Positions 8,911 to 64,000 of a stretch of DNA of 64,000 bases are shown here, in pieces. Below the pieces are notes generated by a model. That model saw nothing but the letters and a program-made list of their open reading frames with translations, made no database searches and was not told the origin of the DNA. Position 1 is the stretch's first letter. Each line of letters begins with the position of its first letter. The position numbers were made by a program, and so were the translations under genes. Origin of the DNA: Methylomonas sp. ZR1 (GTDB lineage: Bacteria > Pseudomonadota > Gammaproteobacteria > Methylococcales > Methylomonadaceae); the NCBI RefSeq assembly GCF_013141865.1, contig NZ_RCST01000001.1, forward strand, positions 1,674,001 to 1,738,000, in the 5' to 3' direction.

Positions 8911-8962
8911 ATTTAATATGCGGAATGAGCGTATTCCATCTGCTCAGAATAAAACGATCAGG

Positions 8963-9295
8963 TGTCGCTATCGCGACGGCTTGATTTAATGTCGGTTCGC
9001 GGACCGACAACCGCGATACTTTTCGCTACGAAAACCATCCTTGGTTTTCTCCCTTCGGGCCAGCCTATCGGCTGTTCAAATTCGCTCCAAGCGAATTTGT
9101 GCTTGTCCAAAGAAAAGTATCCAAAAGAAAAGACACCCGGATTTCGCCCTGATCCTGCGCTTCTCGTTTTTTGCAGGGGTTGGCGAAAGGGGCTTCCTGC
9201 CCCTTCGCCAACGAGCGGCATCCCTGCCGCTCCCCTGACGGGCTAATCCTGCAAAAAACTGCGATGCTCGGGGTCGAAATACGGGACCAAACCCC
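8963..9295 (+). repeat. Long structured repeat, copy A
   Basis: About 330 bp matched in inverse orientation by copy B at about 9465-9740. Shared blocks include GTGTCGCT.TCGCGACG, TAATGTCGGTTC, CGGACCGAC and AAAGTATCCAAA. Inside is a strong hairpin (GTTGGCGAAAGGGGC paired with GCCCCTTCGCCAAC). Short reading frames over it look like by-products rather than genes. Confidence 0.75.
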
Positions 9296-9334
9296 ACTCC
9301 TAAGGGAAAGCTGTCGTAATAATTAAAACCATCC

Positions 9335-9435
9335 CTTCTCCCCCAGGGAGAAGGTTAGGATGAGGGAGTCCAAACAAATGCTGCAAGAATTTTCCCCCTC
9401 AACCCAACCCTCTCCCGCAAGGAGAGGGAGCGTTA
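9335..9435. repeat. Pair of REP-like elements in inverse orientation
   Basis: Two short palindromic units, CCCTTCTCCC...GGGAGAAGG followed by TTAGGATGAGGG, and CCCTCAACCCAACCCTCTCCC..GGAGAGGG, face each other across about 40 bp. Elements of this kind are scattered between genes in many proteobacteria. On transcription either unit would form a GC-rich stem-loop. Confidence 0.7.
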
Positions 9436-9464
9436 AGACCACGAAAATACATTAATCCCCCTGC

Positions 9465-9740
9465 TACACAGCAACGGTGTTTCCCCGTATGCCGCGCCGA
9501 GCACCGGAGCTTTTATCGAGAACAGCCCGAAGGGGCGCCGCAAGGATGTGGCGCGTCGGCGGAGGGGCTGGGAAGCACCTTCTGCCGACCCTCGATAAAA
9601 GCTTCGGCGCGCAGGATCAAAGCGGCATCCGGGCCGCCTTTTCTTTGGATACTTTCTTTTGGCGAAGCAAAAGAAAGTATCTCGGTCGTCGGTCCGAGAA
9701 CCGACATTAGAATCAGTCGTCGCGACAGCGACACAAAATT
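9465..9740 (-). repeat. Long structured repeat, copy B (inverse of copy A)
   Basis: Read on the minus strand from 9740 it follows copy A base by base for about 60 bp (TGTCGCTGTCGCGACG, TAATGTCGGTTC, CGGACCGACGACCG). It then diverges but keeps an equivalent hairpin in which GTTGGC/GCCAAC of copy A has become GTCGGC/GCCGAC, a compensated base pair. Together with copy A it frames the REP-like pair. Confidence 0.72.
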
Positions 9741-49491: not shown

Positions 49492-50592
49492 CTGCTCTTA
49501 AAATAAGTTAAGCCATATTCATGCGATAATACGCGCATGAAATGCAAACGAGATTCCGACGGTCGAGAAATCGACCACCATACCCTGCAAGTGATGCGTC
49601 AGCAGGCGGTCAAAGCAGTGAAAAACGGGCAGACCGCTGCCAGCGTAGCGGCAGTCATGGGCGTCAACATCCGCACGGTGTTTCGCTGGCTGTCAGACTT
49701 TGCGACCGGCGGTCAAAATGCTTTGCTGGCCAAGAAAATCACCGGTCGCCCACCCCTGGTGACCCCCGACGAAATGCGCTGGATTGCCGAAATGGTGCGG
49801 GATAAAACGCCCTGGCAGATGAAACTGGAGTTTGGCTTGTGGACCTTGTCGTTGATCGGCGAAGTCATTTACCGCCAGTTTGGTAAGCGCCTGACCGCGC
49901 CAAGCGTGGGTCGGATCATGCGGATTCTCGGCTTTACCCCGCAAAAACCCTTATATCGGGCTTGGCAGCAAGACCCGGTGTTGGTGGAAAAGTGGCAGGC
50001 TGACGAGTTTCCAGCCTTGAAGGCAGAAGCTAAACGCACCGGCGCGGTGATTTATTTTGCTGACGAAGCGGGCGTCCGTTCTGACTTTCATGCTGGCACC
50101 ACCTGGGCGCCGGTCGGGCGAACGCCCGTCGTGAAGTCGACCGGGTGACGCTACGGCTTGAATCTGATCTCGGCGGTCAGTGCGCGGGGCGATTTTCGCT
50201 TCATGGTGCAAGAAGGCAACGTCACCGCCGAGGTGTTTGTGGAATTCTTGAAGCGCCTGCTGCGCGGTGCCGAACAGCCGATCATTCTGGTTGTCGACGG
50301 GCACCCGATTCACAAGGCCAAGACCGTAAAAACCTTTGTGGAACAGCAGCAAGGCCGGCTGAAATTGGCCTTTTTGCCACCGTATGCGCCGCAATTGAAT
50401 CCGGATGAACAGGTCTGGGGCTACATCAAGCCGCGTGTCGCCAAGCAGATGCCGGAGAATAAAATTGAATTAAAGAAACTCGTTCAATCGGCCATGCACC
50501 GATTACAGAAACTCCCGGATGTCGTGAAATCTTTCTTTAGGCATCCGGAATGTCGATATGCTGGCGAGTGACAATACTTTCTTTATGAGCAG
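49492..50592 (+). mobile_element. IS630-family insertion sequence, 1101 bp
   Basis: Imperfect terminal inverted repeats begin CTGCTCTTAAAATAAGTT (left) and CTGCTCATAAAGAAAGTA (right, reverse complement). The element is bounded by TA at 49490-49491 and 50593-50594, the target duplication of this family. It encodes one transposase frame interrupted by a stop codon. Size and structure are usual for IS630. Confidence 0.88.
49537..50571 (+). pseudogene. IS630 transposase with in-frame TGA
   Basis: The two parts, 49537-50148 (203 aa) and from 50149 on (about 140 aa), lie in the same frame, separated only by TGA at 50146-50148. Full sequence has the helix-turn-helix SVAAVMGVNIRTVFRWL and the DDE catalytic residues: D in YFADEAGVRSD, D in LVVDGHPIHKAK and E in LNPDEQVWGYI. 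The stop falls between the first D and the others, so the protein is likely inactive unless read through. The translation resumes RYGLNLISAVSARGDF, as the family does. Confidence 0.85.
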
Positions 50593-50728
50593 TATCTGCA
50601 GGATTGGGTTGCCGCTATTTTCTCATCTGATGATTTGTTCGAGGCACCCAAATGTAGCTGTACTTTTGTCCTATAATTAACTGTGCAGATAAATATTACA
50701 AAATTTTCAACATTAAAATTACAATACG

Positions 50729-52249
50729 ATGCTATCAAACAACGATTTACAGCAAATTAGCGAAAAATGTATTTCAGAATCACAAATTGTTTATCAGCTT
50801 AAAAGTTTTGAAACGGGTTTCCCGTTTTTGAAAATTATTAATGCTGCATCACCAGATCATGGTATTACGATTGCTTCGGATGCACAAATTAATGATTTGT
50901 TGGAAACATGGAATGCTTATTTAAAAAGCGATGCTTCAATACTCAAATTTGTTCCGGCATCGGGTGCGGCTAGTCGTATGTTTAAAGATTTATATGAGTT
51001 TTTGGATGCCGATTATGCCGAACCGACAAAACCTGCTGAAATTAAATTTATTACCGAAATTAAAAACTTCGCTTTTTACGATGCTTTGAACGAATGTTGT
51101 TTGAAAAATAATAATAAAAGTATTGATGAGCTGATTGAAAATGGAGAGACGAAAGCCATTGTATCTAATTTATTAAACAGTAATGGCTTGAATTATGGTG
51201 CTTTGCCTAAAGGCTTACTTTTATTTCACACCTATAACAACGAAAAACGTACTTCGCTACAGGAGCATTTGGTGGAAGGTGGATTGTATGCTTCTAATGC
51301 ATCGAATGAAGTAAATATTCATTTCACAGTTTCAACTGAACACCGTCAACTGTTTGAAAAACATGTAAATGATACGCTTCCTGAATACGAAAATGTACTG
51401 GGTAAAAAATTCAACATCAGTTTCTCAGAACAAAAGCCATCGACTGACACTATAGCTGTCGACGAACAAAATCAACCATTTCGCGAAAATGGAAAATTAG
51501 TTTTTCGTCCCGGAGGACATGGCGCTCTTATTGAAAATCTGAACGATTTGAATGCAGATGTGATTTTTATTAAGAATATTGATAATGTGGTTCCTGATTC
51601 GCTCAAAAGCCAAACAGTCAAATATAAGAAAGCTATTGCAGGTTTATTGATTAAACTTCAACAAAAAGCGTTTGAAAATCTTCAACTATTGGAGAACGAT
51701 AACATCTCCATTTCAAGCTTACATGAAATTGCACTGTTTTGCGAAAAGCAACTTAATAACATTCACCCTGAAATTAACAAATTGAATGAAAGTGAATTAA
51801 AACAGTACCTAAAATCAAAACTGAATCGTCCGATTAGGGTTTGTGGTATGGTTAAAAATACCGGAGAGCCTGGTGGCGGTCCTTTTCTTACTGTAAATGC
51901 AGATGGAACCGTATCTACTCAAATTCTCGAAAGCTCGCAAATTGATTTATCAAATCCTGCTGAAAAAGCTAAAATGATGAATTCAACACATTTTAATCCT
52001 GTTGATTTGGTATGTGGAGTGAAAAACTATAAAGGCGAAAAATTTAATCTTTTACATTATGTCGACAACCAAACCGGATTTATTTCATCGAAATCCAAGG
52101 GTGGTAAAGAATTGAAAGCTTTAGAGTTGCCCGGACTTTGGAATGGAGCCATGAGCGATTGGAATACAATTTTTGTTGAAGTTCCTATCGAAACATTTAA
52201 TCCGGTAAAAACAGTGAACGATTTGCTTCGTCCTGAACATCAAAAATAA
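50729..52249 (+). CDS. DUF4301 family protein, Bacteroidetes-like
   Basis: 506 residues, complete. FVPASGAASRMFKDLYEF, KGLLLFHTYNN, VFRPGGHGALIENLNDLNAD and CGMVKNTGEPGGGPF are conserved features of the DUF4301 family, which I know mainly from Bacteroidetes. The first motif looks nucleotidyltransferase-like. The DNA is visibly more AT-rich than the host genes, codons end mostly in A/T, and there is no Shine-Dalgarno sequence before the ATG (AATTACAATACG), which is the Bacteroidetes habit. It is followed by a fragment of a Bacteroidetes-type LptF gene. Acquisition from another phylum, or a chimeric assembly, must be considered. Confidence 0.85.
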   Translation: MLSNNDLQQISEKCISESQIVYQLKSFETGFPFLKIINAASPDHGITIASDAQINDLLETWNAYLKSDASILKFVPASGAASRMFKDLYEFLDADYAEPTKPAEIKFITEIKNFAFYDALNECCLKNNNKSIDELIENGETKAIVSNLLNSNGLNYGALPKGLLLFHTYNNEKRTSLQEHLVEGGLYASNASNEVNIHFTVSTEHRQLFEKHVNDTLPEYENVLGKKFNISFSEQKPSTDTIAVDEQNQPFRENGKLVFRPGGHGALIENLNDLNADVIFIKNIDNVVPDSLKSQTVKYKKAIAGLLIKLQQKAFENLQLLENDNISISSLHEIALFCEKQLNNIHPEINKLNESELKQYLKSKLNRPIRVCGMVKNTGEPGGGPFLTVNADGTVSTQILESSQIDLSNPAEKAKMMNSTHFNPVDLVCGVKNYKGEKFNLLHYVDNQTGFISSKSKGGKELKALELPGLWNGAMSDWNTIFVEVPIETFNPVKTVNDLLRPEHQK

Positions 52250-52255
52250 GATAAT

Positions 52256-52381
52256 TTGTTTCCAATTAAAATTATTGAATCATATTTATTCAAAAGGTTT
52301 ATCACATTATTTGTAATGAGCTTTGTTATCTGCATACTTATTTTTCTCGATGCAGTTTCTTTGGAAACATGGCGAATTTAA
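52256..52381 (+). pseudogene. Broken 5' end of an LptF/LptG-type permease gene
   Basis: 41 codons: FPIKIIESYLFKRFITLFVM, then SFVICILIFL. This is the first membrane helix of the YjgP/YjgQ (LptF/LptG) family as found in Bacteroidetes. After CILIFL the expected MQFLWK appears in the +1 frame (from about 52354), so one base is inserted. After WKH the similarity ends, near 52370, which marks the right edge of the foreign segment. Confidence 0.55.
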
Positions 52382-52583
52382 AAGTGAAGTGCGCGATCTT
52401 TCTTTAACCTGCAGTTGCTATTTTCTACTCCGTATAGGTTAGGATGATCAGTTCCTTAAGGTTTTACTTTGACGAGCGGATGATGTGTGCCTAACCTTAT
52501 GGCAAAATTAAATAAGCACTGTAAGGTCTTTGTTTTAGGCGATAATGTAAGTTTATTCCCAACTCTCAGCACGAGATATAGCA

Positions 52584-53903
52584 ATGATAAGACTGTTATG
52601 CACCTTTTTGGTAGCATTGATACCGGTAAAACTGGCTTTTAGTCAGGATTTGCTGGAAACCTATCAGCTAGCGAAAGCCAATGACCCGGAATTTAAAAGC
52701 TCGGATATCAATAAGCTCGCTACCGCCGAGATCAAGTCGCAAAGCATCGCGCAGATGTTGCCGAATCTTTCCTTTAGCGCCAACAGCAGCCGCAATCGCC
52801 TGGAAAGTACCAGCTTTCTGGGAACCACCTTGCAGCATTACTGGGACAGCAAATTCGGTATCAATTTAAAACAACCGGTGTTTCATTGGGAACATTGGGT
52901 GCAGCTCGATCAAGCCGATAACAAAATTGCTCAGGCGGAAGCACAATTCCAGGCTAAACAACAAAGCCTGATCCGCAGAACCGCCGAGGCTTATTTCAAC
53001 ATTCTGGCCGCGCAAGACAATCTGGAATTTGCCAACTCGGAAAAAAAAGCCATCGAAAAACAATTGGAACAGGCCAAACAGCGGTTCGATGTCGGCATCA
53101 TCGCCATTACCGATGTTTACGAAGCCCAAGCCGGCTATGACAGGGCTCTGGCCAGCGAGATCGAAGCACAAAACCTTTTGGATAATAGCAAAGAAGCCTT
53201 GCGGGAAATCATTGGTGAGAATGCCGCCGAACTAAACAGCTTACAAGCGCAAATCCCGCTTAGCCCACCAGCACCCGAGGATTTGGCGTCCTGGTCGAAT
53301 ACGGCTGAGAACAATAATTTCTCTATCGTCGCACAAATTAATCAAGCCGAATACGTCCGCAAAAACGTCGAGTTACAACAATCCAAACATCTGCCCACCC
53401 TCGACATCGTCGCGCAATACAGCGAAATGGACACCGGCAACCGCTACGGTTTACGCGGCGACAATGAAAGTTTCGGATTGCAACTGAACCTGCCTTTATA
53501 CGAAGGCGGCGGCACCTCTTCCCGTAGCCGCCAAGCGGCCTACGAGTATGAAGCCGCCAAGGAAGATTTGACTAAAGTAAAACGCAGCATCAATCGCGGC
53601 GTTAAAGACGCATTTCGCGGCGTGGTTTCCAGCATCAGCCGGGTTAAAGCGCTAGACGCCACCAGCAAATCCGCCGAAATGGCCGTGGAAGCCGCTGAAG
53701 CCGGCTTTGAAGTAGGCACCCGCACCATGGTGGACGTACTCACCGAGCAACGTAATTTATATAAAGCCAAGAGCGATTACGCCAGAAGCCGCTACGACTA
53801 TCTGATCAACGGTATCAAACTCAAGGAAGCGGCCGGCAGCCTGAATGAGCAGGATCTGGAACAGATCAATCAATATCTGCAGGGAACATTGAGTAAGAAC
53901 TAG
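52584..53903 (+). CDS. tolC: TolC family outer-membrane channel protein
   Basis: 439 residues with a signal peptide (LLCTFLVALIPVKLAFSQ). The mature protein shows the two-fold repeat of TolC: LLETYQLAKANDPEFKSSD at the start, YFNILAAQDNLEFANSEKKAIEKQLEQAKQRFDVGIIAITDV in the first half, and EAAEAGFEVGTRTMVDVLTEQRNLYKAKSDY in the second. It forms a trimeric channel for type I secretion or RND efflux. No partner pump is nearby. It lies between two rearranged stretches. Confidence 0.93.
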   Translation: MIRLLCTFLVALIPVKLAFSQDLLETYQLAKANDPEFKSSDINKLATAEIKSQSIAQMLPNLSFSANSSRNRLESTSFLGTTLQHYWDSKFGINLKQPVFHWEHWVQLDQADNKIAQAEAQFQAKQQSLIRRTAEAYFNILAAQDNLEFANSEKKAIEKQLEQAKQRFDVGIIAITDVYEAQAGYDRALASEIEAQNLLDNSKEALREIIGENAAELNSLQAQIPLSPPAPEDLASWSNTAENNNFSIVAQINQAEYVRKNVELQQSKHLPTLDIVAQYSEMDTGNRYGLRGDNESFGLQLNLPLYEGGGTSSRSRQAAYEYEAAKEDLTKVKRSINRGVKDAFRGVVSSISRVKALDATSKSAEMAVEAAEAGFEVGTRTMVDVLTEQRNLYKAKSDYARSRYDYLINGIKLKEAAGSLNEQDLEQINQYLQGTLSKN

Positions 53904-54198
53904 CCTACCCATTGAGTGCTCGAGGCCGCTCGTTAACATTACCGGTTTCGCCGCTCGCCAATGCCGGGCGTTATTGGCACAACCATGTGCTGACCATGTA
54001 GGTTTCGGCTATAACCGGTAAATGTTCTGGCTGAGGATGCTGTGAGTTTCCAAACCTTTGCTATAGCGGGAAAGATACGCTTTACTTCGTTTACCGCATC
54101 CTCAACGGCTGAGGCCGCATGCAGCCAAGATCCGGCGGCAAGCAGCCCGCCGTAACCTTAATCGATTCATGCAAGCCTCGGAATCATCCCGTCATCGC
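53904..54198. other. Intergenic region after tolC
   Basis: About 295 bp without a supported gene. A few partial inverted repeats, for example GCATCCTCA..TGAGG, and the run into the 21-bp array. Nothing else recognised. Confidence 0.35.
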
Positions 54199-54555
54199 TT
54201 TTAGCCTTGCGCGCAAGCCTTTTAAGCTCGCGCACGAGACTTTTCGCTATCGTCGCAAGGCTTTTTGGGTTGCGCGCAATTCTAAAAGCCTTGCGGACTC
54301 ACTTAAAAGTTTTGCGGGCAACACAAAATCATTTGTTCGCCGGGCAAAACGCCTAGCGTGCAAGGCTATTAAGCTTGCGCACAAGCTATTTTGCTATCCT
54401 CGCAATGCTTTTGGGTTTGCCCGCAACCCACCAAGCCTTGCAGGCAAAGCAAATTGATTTACTCGCCCGGCAAAATGCCTTGCGCGCAAGGCGTTTTGGT
54501 TTGCACGCAAGAGAATTTGGCTTTCGCGACTAGCAAAATGCGATTCTCGTTTGGC
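54199..54555. repeat. Array of 17 degenerate 21-bp tandem repeats
   Basis: Seventeen units of exactly 21 bp with no insertion or deletion. Approximate consensus TTTTNGCNTTGCGCGCAAGGC. Most units contain a palindromic TTGCGCGCAA-like core. A higher-order period of seven units (147 bp) is visible: units 2, 3, 4 and 5 resemble units 9, 10, 11 and 12. After the loss of one unit, units 7 and 8 resemble units 13 and 14. The plus-strand frame from 54119 encodes heptads such as FKLAHET, FRYRRKA and FWVARNS; a TGA in unit 13 ends it at 54457. A minus-strand frame over units 10-17 also encodes heptads. Function unknown. Confidence 0.85.
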
Positions 54556-54843
54556 TCCAAGGCTTACTAACGGGGAACAGCTAACCACCCCTGCGGAAAA
54601 TATGGCATCTGTTCGGGAATTAGATATAGTCGATCACGTTATTTGTGGTGGGGTTTGACGGCCATCGGCCAAAAGCCGCCAAACGATACAAAAACGCCAA
54701 TCGCAAATGTCCACTCAAAAGCAGACGTAGAGTTTTGTAAGTTTACGAACCGTGCCAATCGCGAAAGATGCGCTTCACGTTGTTCGACGCATTCTGCGGC
54801 CCTCCCCTGTTAGATGCATTAGATTTGTAAGGAGTCAAATCCT

Positions 54844-54963
54844 ATGCCAGAATTACTGAAAACACGCGCGAACGTAAGATTAGCGAAGCTAGAAGTATAT
54901 TTGGTTGTCGAACATTGTTTGCCTACGCTTTGTGCTGTCGCAAATTTACAGATGGTTAAGTAG
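54844..54963 (+). CDS. Possible 39-residue ORF
   Basis: ATG 54844 preceded by AAGGAG with a 9-base gap. The product begins MPELLKTRANVRLAKLEVYL and ends NLQMVK; no family recognised. The good ribosome site is the only support. Confidence 0.22.
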   Translation: MPELLKTRANVRLAKLEVYLVVEHCLPTLCAVANLQMVK

Positions 54964-54993
54964 CCTGCTGCAATCGTGCATTAACGTTATCTC

Positions 54994-55015
54994 GTCATTG
55001 ACTGAAGTCAATGAC
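54994..55015. promoter_or_regulatory. Perfect inverted repeat upstream of the GTPase operon
   Basis: GTCATTGACT-GA-AGTCAATGAC, ten-base arms with a two-base centre, 65 bp before the ATG at 55081. A TTGACT resembling a -35 box lies inside it. Its size and position suit an operator for a dimeric regulator, which is an inference. Confidence 0.45.
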
Positions 55016-55080
55016 GCTGATCCAAGTATTAAATACCTATACTTGAACCTTATTTGGAATCTTATTTGTGGGAGTTAGGC

Positions 55081-55395
55081 ATGATTAAAGCAGAACAACT
55101 AGGAGAGAAGAGTGTTTTGTTTGGGATAATTTCAGCACTAATATATACTGCAAAACAAACCTATGGCGGGATAGTAAAAGATGCTGGACAAGAAACTGCG
55201 GTACTTGCAACAACAGTAATTATTCTTTCAATAATCAGCCTAGAATTTAAATTGTATGAAACTAGAAAAAGCATCAATAAAAGTCCGATAAGTATATTAA
55301 TTTTTTTATTTTTATATCATTTGGTTGCAGCTTTCATGCGTTCTATAGCAGCAAGATTACAAGCTCACAATATTCTGAAGAGAAAAACTCTTTAA
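55081..55395 (+). CDS. Small membrane protein / N-terminal part of the first cistron
   Basis: 104 residues from ATG 55081 with GGGAG nine bases upstream; a TTG at 55054 is a weaker start. Three hydrophobic stretches: SVLFGIISALIYTA, ETAVLATTVIILSIISLEF and SPISILIFLFLYHLVAAF. It ends at 55395 in its own frame, but at 55302-55308 it contains T TTT TTA in frame. A shift of -1 there enters a frame that is open to 56066. It may therefore exist both as a short and as a 328-residue form. AT-rich and unlike the flanking host genes. No known family recognised. Confidence 0.6.
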   Translation: MIKAEQLGEKSVLFGIISALIYTAKQTYGGIVKDAGQETAVLATTVIILSIISLEFKLYETRKSINKSPISILIFLFLYHLVAAFMRSIAARLQAHNILKRKTL

Positions 55396-56066
55396 TTTCG
55401 AGGTTTTCAAGTTTAAAAGGCGCAGCAATCAGTAGTTTTGAAAAAGAAAAAAAGGAAAAAAAACTCGAAATAAGCCAAATAGAACAAAAAAAACAGGCAC
55501 TGTTAACGGAGCTAAGGACTGGGTTCGGTAATGAGGCAAGAAAAATCACAAAAGACTTAGAAAAAAAATACGGAATTGCTTTTACAAATGAGGATAAAAA
55601 TTCGCTCGGAGATGTAGGAAAAAGAATAGATGATTATATTTCTAAAAATTATTCAGACATCCAATTTTATCAGGACTCGATTAAAAACATTGAAACTAAC
55701 ATTAAAGGCTTGGAAAATGAAAACGCGAGCAGCGAATCAATAAAAAACTTTATCTTGCAATATAACGCAGTTGGAAATGGCCTTAAGAATATTTTCCAAA
55801 ATTTTAACTTTGAAAACTATTTGTCAGATATTGATAGAATTGGGACTGTTTCTTACACGCTAGCAACAGTTGCCAACCAAAGCAAACTTAGTGATGTCAA
55901 CTATAGTTTATTAGTGACAACGATACTTGAGTTTTCTCCGATTATTTTAATATTCGTCAGTACGTCTGGTGCTACCACAAGGTCTCGGTCTGTTTTTCGT
56001 CCACCAAATCCTTCAGACAATGACGAACTCAGTGTATTAATAGACACAAAAGAACTAAAGGAATAA
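55302..56066 (+). CDS. Membrane coiled-coil protein, -1 frame continuation
   Basis: The frame is open from 55281 to TAA 56066 but has no ATG, GTG or TTG before 55710. The translated part from 55302 reads FFIFISFGCSFHAFYSS (membrane helix), then a lysine/glutamate-rich coiled coil (EKEKKEKKLEISQIEQKKQA), a mostly helical soluble region and a last membrane helix (YSLLVTTILEFSPIILIFVS). A start at TTG 55710 would discard the coiled coil. It ends 2 bp before the GTPase gene. Either it is the product of frameshifting from 55081, or the gene carries an indel. No family recognised. Confidence 0.6.
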   Translation, partial: FFIFISFGCSFHAFYSSKITSSQYSEEKNSLISRFSSLKGAAISSFEKEKKEKKLEISQIEQKKQALLTELRTGFGNEARKITKDLEKKYGIAFTNEDKNSLGDVGKRIDDYISKNYSDIQFYQDSIKNIETNIKGLENENASSESIKNFILQYNAVGNGLKNIFQNFNFENYLSDIDRIGTVSYTLATVANQSKLSDVNYSLLVTTILEFSPIILIFVSTSGATTRSRSVFRPPNPSDNDELSVLIDTKELKE

Positions 56067-56068
56067 AA

Positions 56069-56899
56069 ATGTTCGGTAAAAATTATTTTCTGGAAAACAA
56101 CTCAAACGCTTTGCTTTTATTTGGTGTTTCTGGCGCAGGAAAGACATGTTTTATTACTGCATTGATGAAATATCTTTACAATAAAAATGCACTTTTAATT
56201 GATAGCGAGCATGATAAAGATGGGGCGAAACACTTCTACAACCTTATTAAAGAGTGGTCAAATAACAAACTTCCGTCAATTACACCCACAGATCAACTTA
56301 GAGGTATTAATTTTGCCATAACAAAGAATAACAGTTTGGCAAAATATAGGATCTTTGATTTATCCGGCGAAAGCATAGCTTCAATTGAACGAAATTTTAA
56401 TTCCACAATTGAAAGCCTTGTTAATAACAATGAAACATCAGTGACTGTATTTATATTTATTGATCCAACCAAGCCCAGTTTAGATCAGGATCTTCTGCTT
56501 CATCAACTCTATCTCAGACTTGTAAATCATTATAACTACAACTTTAATAATGTTGCACTTGTTTTAACAAAATCTGATACTTTAAATCCCAATATCAAGT
56601 CCAAGCCACTTTCCAGCTACATTGAAAAAGATTTTACAGGCACCTTTAATTGGATAAACAAAAATGTCGCCAATAAGAATTTTTTCATTTTTAGCATTGG
56701 TGAGCAAGACTCTGGTGACAATAAGTTCATAATTAATCAAGATAATAAATATTGTGAAGATGTGGTGGATTGGCTATTTTCACACTCATTAAAAGAAAAT
56801 CAAAGCCTAGAAGTCAAAAGCATAAAAAGTGTCGCAAGTTTCTTCCTAAAAAACAAAAAAATTATTTCTGAAGTTTTTGAATTAATTATAAAAAAATGA
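56069..56899 (+). CDS. P-loop GTPase of TRAFAC-like type, conflict-system candidate
   Basis: 276 residues, cytoplasmic. G1/Walker A is GVSGAGKT (19-26), a Thr pair SITPT (about 70-74) may be switch I, G3 is DLSGE (97-101) and G4 is TKSD (167-170), so guanine specificity is likely. VTVFIFIDPTKPSLDQD lies between G3 and G4. The layout recalls the DO-GTPase-type enzymes described in bacterial conflict systems, but I could not confirm membership. It begins 2 bp after the membrane coiled-coil cistron and shares ATGA with the next gene, so it is the centre of a coupled three-gene operon. AT-rich. Confidence 0.75.
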   Translation: MFGKNYFLENNSNALLLFGVSGAGKTCFITALMKYLYNKNALLIDSEHDKDGAKHFYNLIKEWSNNKLPSITPTDQLRGINFAITKNNSLAKYRIFDLSGESIASIERNFNSTIESLVNNNETSVTVFIFIDPTKPSLDQDLLLHQLYLRLVNHYNYNFNNVALVLTKSDTLNPNIKSKPLSSYIEKDFTGTFNWINKNVANKNFFIFSIGEQDSGDNKFIINQDNKYCEDVVDWLFSHSLKENQSLEVKSIKSVASFFLKNKKIISEVFELIIKK

Positions 56900-57936
56900 C
56901 AATGCGTAGCAATGTTTTTGTTTTTACGTTTGGTTTTTTGGAAGTTTTCGGCCTAAAAATCTTTGAAGAAAAGCATATTTTTAATGCGGCTGCAGATATT
57001 AACAATGGTACTTTAATAAGCCATTTATGGCCGGACAGCAAATTAAAAATATTAGAAAATGGTGCTCTTGTTAGATTTAAGAGCATTGTAATTAATAATA
57101 TGGAATACAGGACCATAACTTATTACAAATTTTGCAAGGATAGCGATAATAGGGATGCGTTTTTCGGTTGCGGGATAGCATATATAAGAGATAAATTCAC
57201 CATTGACGTCCGTCGCTGTATATTGCAGCTGAATTCCATTAATACTTCTTTGTCGAATCAATTAAATCAACAGCTTTTTTTTGAAAGAGAGCCTATAAGT
57301 AGAACAGATATTCTTGATGAATTAATGTCCATTGTTAATAGCCAAAAAACTTTAGAAACAAGAAGTTATTCTAACGAAGCGATATTGCTCGACATTGAGG
57401 GAGACAGTGAAAATAGAAATATATTCAATGAACTTGATTTGCTAAATTATTTTTCATCTTGTAGTCAAGAAATTTATTTAGCCTTAAAAAACATTGAATA
57501 TAAATATCAAAATAGTTCAATAGAGGAGCTTAAAGAGCTTTTAAAAAATACTGGCAAAAAATTAGATACTTCAGAACCTGGGCATCAAGAAGATAAATAT
57601 AGATCAAGATCCAACAATATAATTCCAAAGATCAGATCATTAAAACAGCGCTTATCAATCAACCTAATTCTCAATTTAATTATTTTCGCAATTGGTCTGT
57701 TGAGCGCGCTGATTTTTTTAAACACAATTGAAATTAAAAAAGAAATAAGTAACATTTGCGCACCCCAAAATTCTGACAAAAAAGCAGAAGAGCCGCCCAA
57801 TGATATTAATAACAATCCCTTTAATCAACCTAAATTAAGCGGTATTTCAGATCTCAAAGTTAAGCGAGCAAAATTAATCAACGACTTAAATGAAATAAAT
57901 GAACAGATTAATAATCTAACAAATAATTCAAATTAA
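56896..57936 (+). CDS. Protein with C-terminal membrane anchor, third gene of the GTPase operon
   Basis: 346 residues, starting in the ATGA overlap with the GTPase gene. The N-terminal ~110 residues (VFVFTFGFLEVFGLKIF, FNAAADINNGTLISHLWPDS) look like a globular beta-rich domain. The middle is helical and acidic, and one membrane helix (LILNLIIFAIGLLSALIFLN, about 254-278) precedes a 68-residue tail that may form a coiled coil. With the GTPase and the membrane coiled-coil protein it could form a membrane-associated complex. It may be a GTPase-activating or effector partner, which is an inference from position only. Confidence 0.65.
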   Translation: MTMRSNVFVFTFGFLEVFGLKIFEEKHIFNAAADINNGTLISHLWPDSKLKILENGALVRFKSIVINNMEYRTITYYKFCKDSDNRDAFFGCGIAYIRDKFTIDVRRCILQLNSINTSLSNQLNQQLFFEREPISRTDILDELMSIVNSQKTLETRSYSNEAILLDIEGDSENRNIFNELDLLNYFSSCSQEIYLALKNIEYKYQNSSIEELKELLKNTGKKLDTSEPGHQEDKYRSRSNNIIPKIRSLKQRLSINLILNLIIFAIGLLSALIFLNTIEIKKEISNICAPQNSDKKAEEPPNDINNNPFNQPKLSGISDLKVKRAKLINDLNEINEQINNLTNNSN

Positions 57937-57957
57937 TGCATTATAGTCAGGGCCGTA

Positions 57958-58026
57958 GGGTGGATAAGCGAAGCGCCATCCCCCATAGGAACGCAAACAG
58001 GTGGATGGCGCTTCCCTTATCCACCC
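57958..58026. repeat. Long hairpin repeat after the GTPase operon
   Basis: Arms GGGTGGATAAGCGAAGCGCC and its near-exact complement, 24 bases each with 23 pairing, around a 21-base loop. It resembles the widespread GTAGGGTGGATAAGC intergenic palindrome of proteobacteria. It could end transcription of the operon or protect its mRNA, and it marks the right border of the AT-rich insert. Confidence 0.75.
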
Positions 58027-58219
58027 AACAATTTTTATTATTTGAATGGCTGATTTAAATTTTAAACCGACATTCAAGATAAATACACGAACTTACTCCT
58101 TGGGTCGGTTTCAATAAATTCCCATTTCAAAATACTATCATTCGCCAGTGGCGTAAGTCTCGCTGAATCCATGACCCAAAGTGTTACCTATAAAATCCAA
58201 ACACATGGGCTTTGCTTTA

Positions 58220-60178
58220 TTAAAACTTACGGCAGGTCAAAATAGCTTTAGCAAACACCCCGTCACTGCTTTCCAGCAAACTAAAGTGTTGTTTGGCGCG
58301 GGTGATGCCGGTGTAAATTAATTCGCGGGTGAGCACCGGGCTGATGTTTTCCGGTAAGACCAAGGCCACGTGATTAAACTCCGAGCCCTGCGACTTATGC
58401 ACGGTGATGGCGAAAGCGGTTTCCACATCCGGCAGGCGCATTGGCGAGATCCAGCGTATTTTCAGATTGGCCGATGGCTCGGTATCGGCACTGGGAAATG
58501 CCACTTTAAGCTTACCGCTACTGTCTCGCAACGCAATCCCAATATCGCCGTTCATTAGTCCCAGATTGTAATCGTTGCGGGTGATCATCACCGGCCGGCC
58601 TTCGTACCATAGCGCCTGCTTGGCTTTGGCAAACAACCATTCTTCGATGCGCTGATTAAGGCCTTCCACACCCCACGGCCCTTTCCGCAATGCCGACAGC
58701 ACCTGAAACGCATCGAAGGCGGTTAACACTTGCATGGCCCATTCGTCGTACTGCTCCGCACTGTCCGGCCGGCCAGCATTGATTTGCGCCAGATAATAGC
58801 CATACCCTGGGCGGGCGGCGTCCCCGCTATTAATCACCAGTTTTCTTAACAAACTATCGGCGGCCTCCGGGCTGGGCTGTTGCCGTAAGGCGATATATTC
58901 TGCCCGCGGTTCGGGTAGCAAATCGGGGTACTGTGCCGTGTCAGCTAAGATGGCCTGAGCCTGCAAGGCGTCGCCCTGATTCACGGCTTTAGCCAGTTGG
59001 CCGATGCCGCTATGTGCATCGAAACGATGACTGTGCCGCAACATGACGGTTTGTTGATTGATCGCAGAACCGGGCGCTACGGCAGGTTTGAGTTGTTCGC
59101 CGGCATAATCAGCAATCCAAGCCAGCGTTTCCGCATCATAAGCGGCGTGTTCGGCGCCGCGACATAAATCCCCCATCACCGAACCGGCCTCGACGGAAGC
59201 TAATTGATCCTTGTCGCCTAGCAAGATCAGCTGGGCGTTTGCCGGTAAAGCCTCCAATAGCGACGCCATCATTTCCAGATCTATCATCGACGCCTCATCG
59301 ACGATCACGATGTCGGCGACGATAGGATTGTGACGATCATGCAGAAAGCGCCGCGAATTATGCCGGCTGCCCAGCAAGCGGTGCAAGGTGCTGGCCTTTC
59401 GGGGAATAGTTTGTTTAATGCTGTCGTCGATAGCCAAGTTATCGAGTGCCTTGGCAATCGATTCGCTGACCCTGGCCGCCGCTTTGCCGGTCGGTGCCGC
59501 CAGCAAGATATTCAGACTTTTGGGTTTATCGGTTTCCTGTTGCGCCAGTTCAATCAATAAGGCCAACAATTTGGTCAAGGTAGTGGTTTTGCCGGTACCC
59601 GGCCCGCCGGTGATGATGGCAAAGCGGGCGCGCAAAGCCAGGACACAAGCAACTTTTTGCCAGTCCGGGCTTTCCGAGCTGGCGGGAAACAGCGTTTGCA
59701 AGCGTTCCGCCAAGGACGCCGGCAGTTGGTCCCGCGCCGGTTGCAGACGTTGCATAATGCAGGCTTGCGTGATTTGTTCGTAGTGCCAGTAACGCCGCAA
59801 ATACAGCCGGTTGCCCGCCAAAACCAACGGCGTATCGCCCGCTCCTGATGACACCAGTCTTGATTGTGATAGTGCCCCTTGCCAGACCTCAAGACTATAT
59901 ACTTTTAAGCGTGCCAACTCGGCCGCCGCCGCGTCCTGCTCAATTGCCCAGGCATCATCTGCGGGAATAGCCAGCGTCATCCCCGGTTGCTCACAGAGTT
60001 TTGCCAAGTCCAAATATACTTCGCCTCTATCCAGCTGATGGCTGACCAAGGCCCCCGCCCATAGCACTTGGTCAGACGCCGCCGGGTCGAGATCCAGCAA
60101 AAAACCGACGAAGGCCCGATTCAAATGACTTAACCAGCCTTTCGCTACCCAGTGTTGCATGCTCGCTTGCGTGGTCAT
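58220..60178 (-). CDS. recD: Exodeoxyribonuclease V alpha subunit
   Basis: 652 residues. Walker A GGPGTGKTTTL, DEXX region IVDEASMIDLEMM, the helicase motif LLGDKDQLASVEAG and the late VHKSQGSEFNHV motif are complete for the fast SF1B helicase of RecBCD. The last ~60 residues carry the YTGITRAKQ motif. It overlaps the recB stop by 4 bp (ATGA). Together with recB and recC it processes double-strand ends and degrades unprotected DNA. Confidence 0.95.
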   Translation of the reverse strand: MTTQASMQHWVAKGWLSHLNRAFVGFLLDLDPAASDQVLWAGALVSHQLDRGEVYLDLAKLCEQPGMTLAIPADDAWAIEQDAAAAELARLKVYSLEVWQGALSQSRLVSSGAGDTPLVLAGNRLYLRRYWHYEQITQACIMQRLQPARDQLPASLAERLQTLFPASSESPDWQKVACVLALRARFAIITGGPGTGKTTTLTKLLALLIELAQQETDKPKSLNILLAAPTGKAAARVSESIAKALDNLAIDDSIKQTIPRKASTLHRLLGSRHNSRRFLHDRHNPIVADIVIVDEASMIDLEMMASLLEALPANAQLILLGDKDQLASVEAGSVMGDLCRGAEHAAYDAETLAWIADYAGEQLKPAVAPGSAINQQTVMLRHSHRFDAHSGIGQLAKAVNQGDALQAQAILADTAQYPDLLPEPRAEYIALRQQPSPEAADSLLRKLVINSGDAARPGYGYYLAQINAGRPDSAEQYDEWAMQVLTAFDAFQVLSALRKGPWGVEGLNQRIEEWLFAKAKQALWYEGRPVMITRNDYNLGLMNGDIGIALRDSSGKLKVAFPSADTEPSANLKIRWISPMRLPDVETAFAITVHKSQGSEFNHVALVLPENISPVLTRELIYTGITRAKQHFSLLESSDGVFAKAILTCRKF

Positions 60179-63100
60179 GACGACGCTCCAAACAAGGCAT
60201 CCAAACCCTCGATCAAGGCTCTGGGTGGTTTATCGAATACGCGCCCTGCCCTTGGCCCTAAAGCGCCTCTTAAAAACAAATACAGGCCCCCGCCGATGTG
60301 GGTATCGTAATCGTAAGCAGCACCCAATCTGACTTTCAGCAAACGATGCAAGGCCAATAAATACAAGCTGTATTGCAGATCGTACCGCTTAGCCAACATC
60401 GCCGCAGTCAAGGCCTCCTGCGTATACGCCGCGTCGTCGGCACCCAAACTGTTGAATTTATAATCGACCACGTAGTACCGCTGATCGTGCACGAACACCA
60501 AGTCGATAAAACCTTTTAACAGCCCGTTTACTTGGCCGGGCAGTAAGCCCGGACGAGCTTGCCCGCCGAAGGTGTGGCGGCTGACCACGCGGTCCAGTTC
60601 CTCAGTGTCCACGGTATCGGCACCCAGCAGAAATTCCAGCTCGGCTTGATAGGCATTAGCTTCTAACGTAGCCAAACTAACATTGGCGTCCTCCAGCAAG
60701 GGCATGTGCAACCAGTGCGACAAGGCCGAACCGATGACAGCATGTTTGTTCTCCCATTCGCCGATAAATCGCTTTTGAATCAATTCTTGTCTTAAGGCAG
60801 GATTTGCCGACACACTGGAAAAACCGCGTTGCGCGCATTCCTCCAGCAGATCGTGAATCAACACGCCGGGGCCAGCGCCTCTGGGCAAAGCGTGGACACC
60901 GGACAAGGGTCTACTGAGCGCCGCAGCAATTTCGGCTTCGTCGTTTTGCTTATCGTCTTGGGCGGTTTCAAACTCAGGCAACAGCCGAGACTGATCTTCC
61001 GCAGGCGTCAGGTGGTCCGCGATGTGCAAGGCGCTATAGCTGGCTATCCACCAATTACTGAATACTTTACTGAGCGGCACGCGCGCATCAAAGCCACCCT
61101 CGTCTGCCAAAACCGGGCTATAGCGCGCGTCGTCAATTTCCGGTAAAGGCTTAATCGAAATTGCTGCGCAGCTGCCTTTCAGTTCAATCAGTCGCTCGGC
61201 TAAGACGCTAATAGGCATTTTTGCCTGCCAATTGAGTAAGGCACCCAGCGCCGATTTTTCCAACTGGCAATCCTTGGTACTGCCGGACTTGACCGGAGCA
61301 ATACCCAACCAACAAGCATGCCGGGCTCGGGTCATCGCCACATACAGCAAACGCAAATCTTCCTGCAACCTTTCTTCGTCGCTGATGGATTTGATCTGCT
61401 CTTGTTTATGCAAGTCGATTTGCAAATCCTGATTGTCGTCGTGATAGCGGTAATAGGCATTGAAGCGGCCGCCAACTTCCCGAAAGCTGCAAATAAACGG
61501 CAAAAATACCAACGGGTACTCCAGGCCTTTGGATTTATGAATGGTGACGACCTTAATCAAATTGGCATCACTCTCCAGCCTGATGATACCGTCATCGCCG
61601 GCTTGGCTACCGCCGGCCTCTATCGCCTCAGCCAGATACCTGATCAGGGCTTGCTCGCCTTCCAACTGGGTGCTGGCGCGTTGTAACAATTCAGCCAGAT
61701 GCAACAGATTGGTGATGGAGCGTTCGCCTTCGTTGTCGTCAGCCAGACGCGCATGTAAGCCATAATCGTTAATCAATTGCCGCAGCGCGGGCAAAATACC
61801 GTCCCGTTGCCAGCGTTGTTGATACGTCAGAAAGCGTTCCAGATGCAATTCCCAGCCGGGTTCGTCCAAGGCCAGTGCGTGCAGCGCTTGGTAAGACCAA
61901 GCAAAGGTCGCCGAACTTAAGGCCGCGCGCACCTTGCGCTCATTACGCGGCTCGGCCAGGGCATTTAACCAAAGCAACATGTCGACCGCTTCGCCACTGG
62001 CAAAGATGGAATCGCGCTCCGACAGATAAACGCTGCGCAAGCGGCGGCGCGCCAAAGCGTTGCGTATCGCCGTTGCTTCGGTGCCGCTACGAACCAGGAT
62101 AGCGATGTCCCCAGGCTGCAACATTTGTATACCGGATGCAGATTTAAACCCGGCTTGCCCTGCATCAGCCGCATTCAACAATTTGACAATCTGGCTGGCC
62201 GTCACCTCCGCCAGCCTTTCCCGATAAGCCGGCATGCCGACCGCATCCGCGCTTTCCCAATGCCACAGGGTCAACGCCGGGGCGGCTTGCTTATCGATAA
62301 GCCATACCTCGTCGCGACCTTGGGCCTTGACCGGCAAAAAAGGTAACCGATTGTCCTGTTCGGTTTTAAAGCGGAATGCGCCGCGCTCTTGCTGATCGGC
62401 GTGCAAAAACACCTGATTGACCGCGTCGACCAAAGCCTGAGTGGAACGGTAATTGGTGCCCAGGGTGTAATGCCGGCCTTGGGTGTCGCGGTGAGCCTTA
62501 AGATAAGTGTATATATCCGCGCCGCGGAACGAGTAGATAGCTTGTTTCGGGTCGCCGATCATCAAACAGGCAAAATCACCGTCGGCTGGCGTGGCGTAGA
62601 GCGCGGAAAAAATCCGGTATTGCAGCGGGTCGGTATCCTGAAACTCGTCGATCAACGCAATCGGATACTGCTCGCGAATCACCTGAGCCAGCCTGTCGCC
62701 ATTGCGGCCTTGCAGCGCGTTATCCAAACGAACCAGCATGTCGTCGAAGGTCATCCTGGCGATGCGTTGCTTTTCAAAATCGTAACGCTGCCTAATCCAA
62801 TGCACGGCGTGCTTGATCAGCTCGACTTTTAAACTCGGCAATGCCGCCAGTTGCTCGGGCAAGCGGCCAATCGCCGCAAAACCGGGATGGTCCGGCGGCG
62901 TTTGTCCGGGGTTGGCTAACTTAGCCATACCGGCCGGCGACAGATTCTCAAAGCCCTTGCCGATGTCCAGCATATCCTGCGCCGGGTCCAGGCTCCATGC
63001 CTCGATTTTGTCCAGCCAGTTGCGGCGGTTAGTGGCGTTGTAATTTTTTGCGGGCAGCACTTTGGTTTCTATTGCTGCCTCTAAGAGTTCGCGGACTTCA

Positions 63101-63843
63101 GGCAGCCAACTTAGCCAAGGCGCTTTTAAAGCCTGTAGCTCAGTCTTCCGAATGGACGCCACTGCGGCAATCAAGGCATTGATGGGCTGACCGTCGGCCA
63201 AGCTAGACGGTATCGGCTCGGCGTTACCCAGCAGCGAACGCACCGCCAGCAGTAATTCGTCCGGATGCTTGAACAACGTATACAGGCTAGCAAAATCGGC
63301 ATCGTTGGACATGTCGTAATAAAAACTGCGCCAATAGTCCCGCACCACCTCATTCAGCAATTCGGTATCGTTGGTGTTGACTTCCTGCCGGAACAAACTG
63401 CCGCTATCAAAAGCATGTTGTTGCAACATGCGGTTACACCAACTGTGGATGGTGTAAACCGCCGCCTCGTCCATCCAGTTGGCCGCCAATTCCAGACGGC
63501 GGGCGCAGGCCGGCCAGTCTACTTCAGGATAAGCGCCACGGATGTCTTGCAAGAAGGCATCCTTCGTCGGCAGTTGCTGACGAAAAAACCGTGCGGCCTG
63601 GCTCAAGCGTTCGCGTATCCGTTCCCGCAGTTCCTTGGTGGCGGCTTCGGTGAAAGTCACCACCAAAATATCCGGCGGCAATAGATAACGGCTGGGGCCA
63701 GCATTGTCGGGATGGTGTCCCAGAATTAACCGCACATATAAGGCGGCGATGGTATAGGTCTTACCGGTGCCGGCGCTGGCTTCGATCAGCCGCGTACCCG
63801 ACAACGGAAATGCGATGGGGTTGAGTGGGATAGCAGTGGTCAT
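60175..63843 (-). CDS. recB: Exodeoxyribonuclease V beta subunit
   Basis: 1222 residues. Walker A IEASAGTGKTYTIAALYVRL, DEFQD (LIDEFQDTDPLQYRIF), QAIYSFRGAD and the late VVTIHKSKGLEYPLVFLP helicase motifs are seen. The C-terminal nuclease domain has GFIDLVFVHDQRYYVVDYKFN with the D..D-x-K catalytic residues. The length is normal. The start overlaps recC by 4 bp. Confidence 0.97.
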   Translation of the reverse strand: MTTAIPLNPIAFPLSGTRLIEASAGTGKTYTIAALYVRLILGHHPDNAGPSRYLLPPDILVVTFTEAATKELRERIRERLSQAARFFRQQLPTKDAFLQDIRGAYPEVDWPACARRLELAANWMDEAAVYTIHSWCNRMLQQHAFDSGSLFRQEVNTNDTELLNEVVRDYWRSFYYDMSNDADFASLYTLFKHPDELLLAVRSLLGNAEPIPSSLADGQPINALIAAVASIRKTELQALKAPWLSWLPEVRELLEAAIETKVLPAKNYNATNRRNWLDKIEAWSLDPAQDMLDIGKGFENLSPAGMAKLANPGQTPPDHPGFAAIGRLPEQLAALPSLKVELIKHAVHWIRQRYDFEKQRIARMTFDDMLVRLDNALQGRNGDRLAQVIREQYPIALIDEFQDTDPLQYRIFSALYATPADGDFACLMIGDPKQAIYSFRGADIYTYLKAHRDTQGRHYTLGTNYRSTQALVDAVNQVFLHADQQERGAFRFKTEQDNRLPFLPVKAQGRDEVWLIDKQAAPALTLWHWESADAVGMPAYRERLAEVTASQIVKLLNAADAGQAGFKSASGIQMLQPGDIAILVRSGTEATAIRNALARRRLRSVYLSERDSIFASGEAVDMLLWLNALAEPRNERKVRAALSSATFAWSYQALHALALDEPGWELHLERFLTYQQRWQRDGILPALRQLINDYGLHARLADDNEGERSITNLLHLAELLQRASTQLEGEQALIRYLAEAIEAGGSQAGDDGIIRLESDANLIKVVTIHKSKGLEYPLVFLPFICSFREVGGRFNAYYRYHDDNQDLQIDLHKQEQIKSISDEERLQEDLRLLYVAMTRARHACWLGIAPVKSGSTKDCQLEKSALGALLNWQAKMPISVLAERLIELKGSCAAISIKPLPEIDDARYSPVLADEGGFDARVPLSKVFSNWWIASYSALHIADHLTPAEDQSRLLPEFETAQDDKQNDEAEIAAALSRPLSGVHALPRGAGPGVLIHDLLEECAQRGFSSVSANPALRQELIQKRFIGEWENKHAVIGSALSHWLHMPLLEDANVSLATLEANAYQAELEFLLGADTVDTEELDRVVSRHTFGGQARPGLLPGQVNGLLKGFIDLVFVHDQRYYVVDYKFNSLGADDAAYTQEALTAAMLAKRYDLQYSLYLLALHRLLKVRLGAAYDYDTHIGGGLYLFLRGALGPRAGRVFDKPPRALIEGLDALFGASS

Positions 63844-64000
63844 ACAGACGCCTCCCCTGCCGCTGGTAATTCGCGGATACGCGCCAACATCGGCCGATAC
63901 AAATTATCCGCCCAGTGTGCAAAATCCTTGTCAGCGGCAAACGCCGTCAAACTGGCAAAATTGGGAAAGAAGCGCGCCAAATAGGCGTCGTATTGCACTT
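63840..64000 (-). CDS. recC: Exodeoxyribonuclease V gamma subunit, C-terminal end
   Basis: Only the last 53 codons lie in the window: QYDAYLARFFPNFASLTAFA and HWADNLYRPMLARI, ending in GASV then TGA at 63840. The C-terminal fold and the place upstream of recB identify RecC. The rest is beyond 64000. Confidence 0.85.
   Translation of the reverse strand, partial: VQYDAYLARFFPNFASLTAFAADKDFAHWADNLYRPMLARIRELPAAGEASV

Follow-up and report, generated by a model that had tools for sequence, protein, structure and literature searches.

A three-gene operon with a predicted DO-type GTPase, a candidate conflict cassette in a variable slot between tolC and recD of Methylomonas

Between a tolC-like gene and recD of Methylomonas sp. 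ZR1 is an AT-rich cassette carrying three tightly packed genes on the forward strand. The window, the whole 64,000-nucleotide stretch of DNA analysed here, spans positions 1,674,001–1,738,000 of a 5.12-Mb contig (genome of 5.18 Mb, two contigs); unless stated otherwise, coordinates are those of the window. The slot and its surroundings comprise the following features.

52584–53903, forward strand: tolC-like gene bordering the slot on the left (TIGR01844, 349 bits)
54119–54778, no strand: degenerate repeat array and flank common to the same-species genome G704, left shoulder of the slot (50% GC)
54779–57945, no strand: AT-rich swap cassette holding the operon (32% GC; edges from alignments)
55081–55395, forward strand: ORF1, first frame (frame 1), a 104-aa N-terminal part bearing membrane segment(s); unbroken counterpart in the database protein P0003
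55281–56066, forward strand: ORF1, second part, open in frame 0, with a charged, coiled-coil-like middle and the last membrane segment
55300–55318, forward strand: T-rich tract where the two ORF1 frames part, by comparison with P0003
56069–56899, forward strand: ORF2, 276-aa P-loop GTPase, DO-GTPase type (by PF19975, PF19993 and motifs)
56896–57936, forward strand: ORF3, 346 aa (344 if the start is at 56902), one membrane segment, no family match (ORF calling, family scans)
57955–58029, no strand: hairpin repeat with 30-nt arms, 90% complementary, found beside recD in genome G013 too
58220–60178, reverse strand: recD, right shoulder of the slot (TIGR01447, 578 bits)

The operon measures 2.9 kb, with 2 bp separating ORF1 (55081–56066, in two frames) from ORF2 (56066/56069) and a 4-bp overlap joining ORF2 to ORF3 (56896–56899), in agreement with the first-pass annotation, which had described an AT-rich run of three closely packed genes. 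Purine-rich stretches lie upstream of the ORF1 and ORF2 starts, and the start of ORF3 and the stop of ORF2 overlap. Open frames of 276 and 346 codons at 31% GC are not the product of chance, given that stops are expected at about 8% of codons by our own estimate. Scans of the cassette for promoters and terminators gave nothing better than shuffled sequence, and a snoRNA-like Rfam match inside it, below threshold, was put down to chance.

The cassette stands out by its GC content, 32% against 50% over the first 50 kb of the window, and its edges are set by alignment to related genomes. On the left, the alignment with G704 stops at 54778; on the right, that with G013 starts at 57946 and those with G704 and G011 start at 58100. 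The tandem repeats and hairpin that had been noted at the borders are both present, the former as degenerate repeats with a unit of about 21 nt, or multiples of it, at 54198–54541. The neighbourhood had also been described as recBCD, of which NCBIfam models confirm recD and recB; recC was not seen. In the left flank region is a 70-nt, 84% match to a Methylomonas plasmid. Elsewhere in the genome, the hairpin core recurs once as a facing pair (68,593–68,661), and one further match carries two mismatches. An IS630-family transposase ORF is located near the slot at 49537–50148, and the G704 alignment is broken at 49495–50593. Elsewhere in the window, at 8962–9738, is an interspersed repeat, pieces of which (about 190–330 nt, 78–86% identity) recur in 6 of 93 sampled G704 stretches.

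ORF2 is, by the tests made on its sequence, a divergent member of the DO-GTPase family. It scores 37.6 bits against PF19975 and 33.3 bits against PF19993 (Pfam gathering cut-off of 27 for each) with partial coverage of the models (positions 1–120 of 271 and 5–193 of 226), and the genome scan agrees; among 14 control genomes, none passes the cut-off for PF19975 and one passes that for PF19993. With both gathering scores passed, the earlier DO-GTPase lead proved correct at the level of the family. The G1 (GVSGAGKT), G3 (DLSGE) and G4 (TKSD) motifs it had listed are present, their key residues falling in eight columns (G19, G24, K25, T26, D97, G100, E101 and D170) that are invariant in ORF2 and six DO-GTPases. 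Retained in ORF2 is DxxGE, the conserved Glu after Walker B, and its P-loop starts at residue 19.

Other matches of ORF2 are confined to low scores. PADLOC-DB 2.0.0 returned six weak rows, the best to mad8 (17.7 bits over residues 13–96), which we read as weak matches to the P-loop only. A match to phrog_14322 (function unassigned; E 4.5e-5, residues 6–66) and nSTAND/AAA models below cut-off were likewise put down to P-loop similarity. Membership of YcjX/DUF463 was rejected, PF04317 scoring 14.2 bits against a cut-off of 25, and the best PDB sequence match, the P-loop of YcjX, is not significant (E 0.17). A structure search with the ORF2 model gave generic matches; DO-GTPases are not among the best 50 listed, which excludes nothing. 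A near-identical GTPase, P0001, is cut short at 208 aa and ends in about 14 foreign residues, which may be an insertion or a contig artefact.

ORF1, suspected earlier of lying in two frames, is indeed split in this assembly. Its unbroken form is the 331-aa database protein P0003, which contains both halves and matches 98% of the frame-0 piece at 99% identity. Membrane segments are predicted in P0003 near residues 40–58, 70–88 and 280–298, and the middle of the protein is charged and, judged by eye, coiled-coil-like. Its best family match in Pfam, PHROGs and NCBIfam is no better than E 0.016, and no SLATT family was found on it at E ≤ 10 (Pfam). P0001 and P0003 probably lie on one contig, because the longest contig for each is 7,472 bases, and their source may be another assembly of the same strain. 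The split may come from misassembly or slippage, or may be a genuine difference; since ORF1 is split here, expression of this copy may be absent or variable.

ORF3 has a single strong predicted membrane segment, late in the protein (residues 255–273 of the 344-aa form), consistent with the one C-terminal helix first proposed for it. No family was found for it in Pfam (E ≤ 1) or PHROGs, and NCBIfam gave one weak row over the membrane helix (E 0.0045; 16.3 bits against a cut-off of 423). The structure prediction is unusable (pLDDT 39.7). Lying directly downstream of the GTPase, ORF3 occupies the position of GAP1. A GAP1-like N terminus, first proposed on visual inspection of one strand pattern, was rejected on profile comparison: the first 150 residues gave 0.1% against a three-sequence GAP1-N1 profile, six shuffles 0.1–0.2% and held-out GAP1-N1 sequences 25, 98 and 98%, a test of limited power because ORF3 is a single sequence.

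Partners of known DO-GTPases were not found in the operon. No GAP1 domain was found on P0003 (E ≤ 10) or ORF3 (Pfam, E ≤ 1), GAP1-N1 (PF20012) is absent from the whole of the ZR1 genome at E ≤ 10, and family scans found neither GASH nor FNIII on the operon proteins; the same scan does show GASH at two other loci (L018 and L019). The operon falls outside the DO-GTPase–GAP1 systems as these are defined, because no GAP1, GASH or FNIII partner was found there. Nor does PADLOC-DB 2.0.0 hold a strong match to known anti-phage systems for ORF2, ORF3 or the first ORF1 piece, the latter two being without a match at E ≤ 10.

Relatives were sought in protein, plasmid, phage, contig and genome sets, with metagenome DNA outside the scope. 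Against 5.8 billion proteins, each query had one match: P0001 for ORF2 (E ≤ 1e-3), P0002, apparently the window's own, for ORF3 (E ≤ 10), and P0003 for the frame-0 piece of ORF1 (E ≤ 10). No match was found by tblastn of plasmids and phages with ORF2, P0003 and P0002, or for ORF2 in collections of genome contigs and viral contigs. Among relatives' genomes, ORF2 and ORF1 each occur in one of 41, their own, and ORF3 in one of 274, again its own; the operon DNA is present in one of 37 genomes of the genus, the other 36 lacking it. Across the phylum, ORF2 matched 3 of 398 genomes, its own and two with matches of 47–50 residues (E 4.5e-4 and 6.8e-4), which run across stop codons and were taken as noise. 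A search of published work turned up nothing recognised with this three-gene layout. As far as these search sensitivities reach, the operon is so far an orphan. The first-pass annotation had said that its reading would fall if no other genome had a conserved three-gene neighbourhood; none was found in any other species, and read literally this counts against it. The absence marks an orphan, rather than a housekeeping set.

What occupies the slot was read in G704 and in three other genomes (G011, G006 and G013) whose recD is of the window type, at 86–94% protein identity. In G704, which has no match to the operon DNA, tiling located the orthologous site, with window positions 50593–54778 matched at 94.8% identity and 58100–63992 at 91.0%. 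Between those flanks is a different piece of 2.6 kb and 31% GC, which carries the following genes.

L152:6259–8603 (G704): type I-B retron genes at the orthologous slot, assigned with PADLOC

The first gene matches RT_I-B (E 6.9e-109, 14–321 of 322), with which Pfam RVT_1 agrees, and the second ATPase-Toprim_I-B (E 5.7e-169, 11–453 of 457), with which Pfam AAA_21 agrees; no retron RNA family was found in the piece by Rfam at E ≤ 0.1. In G011, a Mutator-family transposase occupies the slot together with two ORFs (440 and 254 aa, L046:7754–9785) that have no convincing family and matched no PADLOC family at E ≤ 0.01. Near its end the 440-aa ORF matches DUF2726 weakly, and its tail looks nuclease-like by eye. 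This pair beside recD is a candidate system of a new type. In G006, only about 90 bp separate the aligned ends, and G013 carries different genes on that side of recD and has the hairpin in common with the window. With that of ZR1 itself (G000), five states of the slot are seen in five genomes, and the tolC–recD site is thus a variable swap slot. Its cargo extends beyond known defence, as the G011 pair and the other genes of G013 illustrate.

Eleven further recD copies, at 59–72% identity, were identified (that of G010 partial). The far side was taken for nine of them (G003 and G010 left out), and G008 offers only 540 bases, leaving eight readable. One of these copies, 72% identical, is in ZR1 itself.

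G000:C1 ~176,600–182,300 (L048): second recB–recD-like stretch, compared with window 58220–63843

This stretch is 69% identical in nucleotides over 5.7 kb, and directly after the second recD is a SIR2 gene (PADLOC, E 1.6e-105). In G009, a GmrSD-type gene, assigned by family scan, lies behind an ORF that by eye resembles a transposase. Family scans thus place a defence-type gene beside two of the eight less similar copies; a Tn3 transposase is found by the same means at the far side in G012, and five copies (G015, G014, G007, G001 and G004), read by eye only, show no defence-type gene. Variability is established for the tolC–recD slot, not for every recD neighbourhood.

Taken together, we give about even credence to the operon being an exchangeable conflict cassette, probably anti-phage, seated in the slot between tolC and recD and working by a division of labour. 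Its starting points, the operon layout, the motifs and family of the GTPase and the exchange with retron genes, are observed. From family and layout we infer the remainder, namely defence, a membrane-effector role and the allocation of tasks. By analogy, the operon probably works like DO-GTPase systems, with ORF2 as a putative GTP-driven switch of that type. ORF3, held in the membrane by its one late helix at the place of GAP1, would sense or report the trigger as a sensor or adaptor, and ORF1, with membrane segments flanking its coiled-coil-like stretch, would be a membrane effector that the firing switch opens or assembles.

Defence is the preferred reading because the slot beside recD swaps the operon for type I-B retron genes, and it is no more than likely because relatives are missing and ORF1 is broken. 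The defence or stress module of the first-pass annotation accordingly stands on the shared address with the retron and falls short on the conserved neighbourhood and an intact ORF1. The strongest rival is a horizontally acquired passenger, neutral or decaying, whose once active genes are now breaking and serve no present function. The split of ORF1, the truncation of P0001 and the lack of the operon DNA in 36 of 37 genomes of the genus all favour it, but ORF2 and ORF3 are long, open and tightly packed, an unbroken ORF1 exists as P0003, and the split falls in a T-rich tract, a plausible place for misassembly or slippage; we consider such a passenger rather unlikely. Less probable again is a membrane GTPase module outside immunity, serving envelope stress or another purpose, whose place in the variable slot is fortuitous: some psp operons also include a member of the DO-GTPase family, with a predicted role in membrane stress (PMC11237479), and the YcjX P-loop is the nearest PDB match, whereas the YcjX family score is far under its cut-off, no psp-like gene is seen in the cassette and exchange with retron genes speaks against a non-immune cargo. 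Concerning ORF1 only, and compatible with a defence cassette, programmed slippage, on the ribosome or during transcription, within the T-rich tract could make the protein whole, a T TTT TTA heptamer lying at 55302–55308 in frame with the first half and the second frame being −1, but this is very improbable, as P0003 is a single uninterrupted database protein, such heptamers are common in T-rich DNA and there are no relatives for a test of conservation.

Pursuing the defence reading further, we tentatively suggest, as a possibility well short of even, a compact immune system of a kind not yet described, in which a single DO-type GTPase, lacking both GAP1 and a partner GTPase, would directly switch the ORF1 effector under the membrane-anchored sensor ORF3. 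Such a system would spread by cassette exchange beside recD, perhaps sense interference with RecBCD, a speculation drawn from the address alone, and turn ORF1 on or off through changes in T-tract length. If the operon is defensive, DO-type GTPases can run immunity without GAP1. The slot also provides a natural experiment, with one species, two genomes and one address occupied by either retron genes or a GTPase operon, the two occupancies being known from two genomes, too few for mutual exclusion. Within the genus, the recD side is a place to seek further systems, as the G011 pair and the SIR2 and GmrSD-type genes at other recD copies indicate.

Closest to the operon are the DO-GTPase/GAP1 systems (Kaur et al. 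2020, PMC7159879). Of these, 67% are reported to include a membrane component, and in some the effectors are SLATT proteins predicted to form pores. Likenesses are that ORF2 passes the DO-GTPase1 and DO-GTPase2 cut-offs with a DxxGE Walker B, that a gene lies directly downstream of the GTPase, and that there are membrane components. Unlike those systems, the operon has a single GTPase with no GAP1, GASH or FNIII found, an ORF2 whose P-loop begins too early to leave room for N-terminal zinc ribbons, and a compact layout with two unclassified membrane proteins. The type I-B retron (RT and ATPase-Toprim) of G704 has the same tolC–recD slot and a similar GC content and size, whereas its proteins are unrelated to those of the operon; the address alone is in common. 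To the YcjX (DUF463) stress GTPases, the likeness is of the P-loop only, ORF2 differing in its score below the family cut-off and in having no psp-like neighbours in view.
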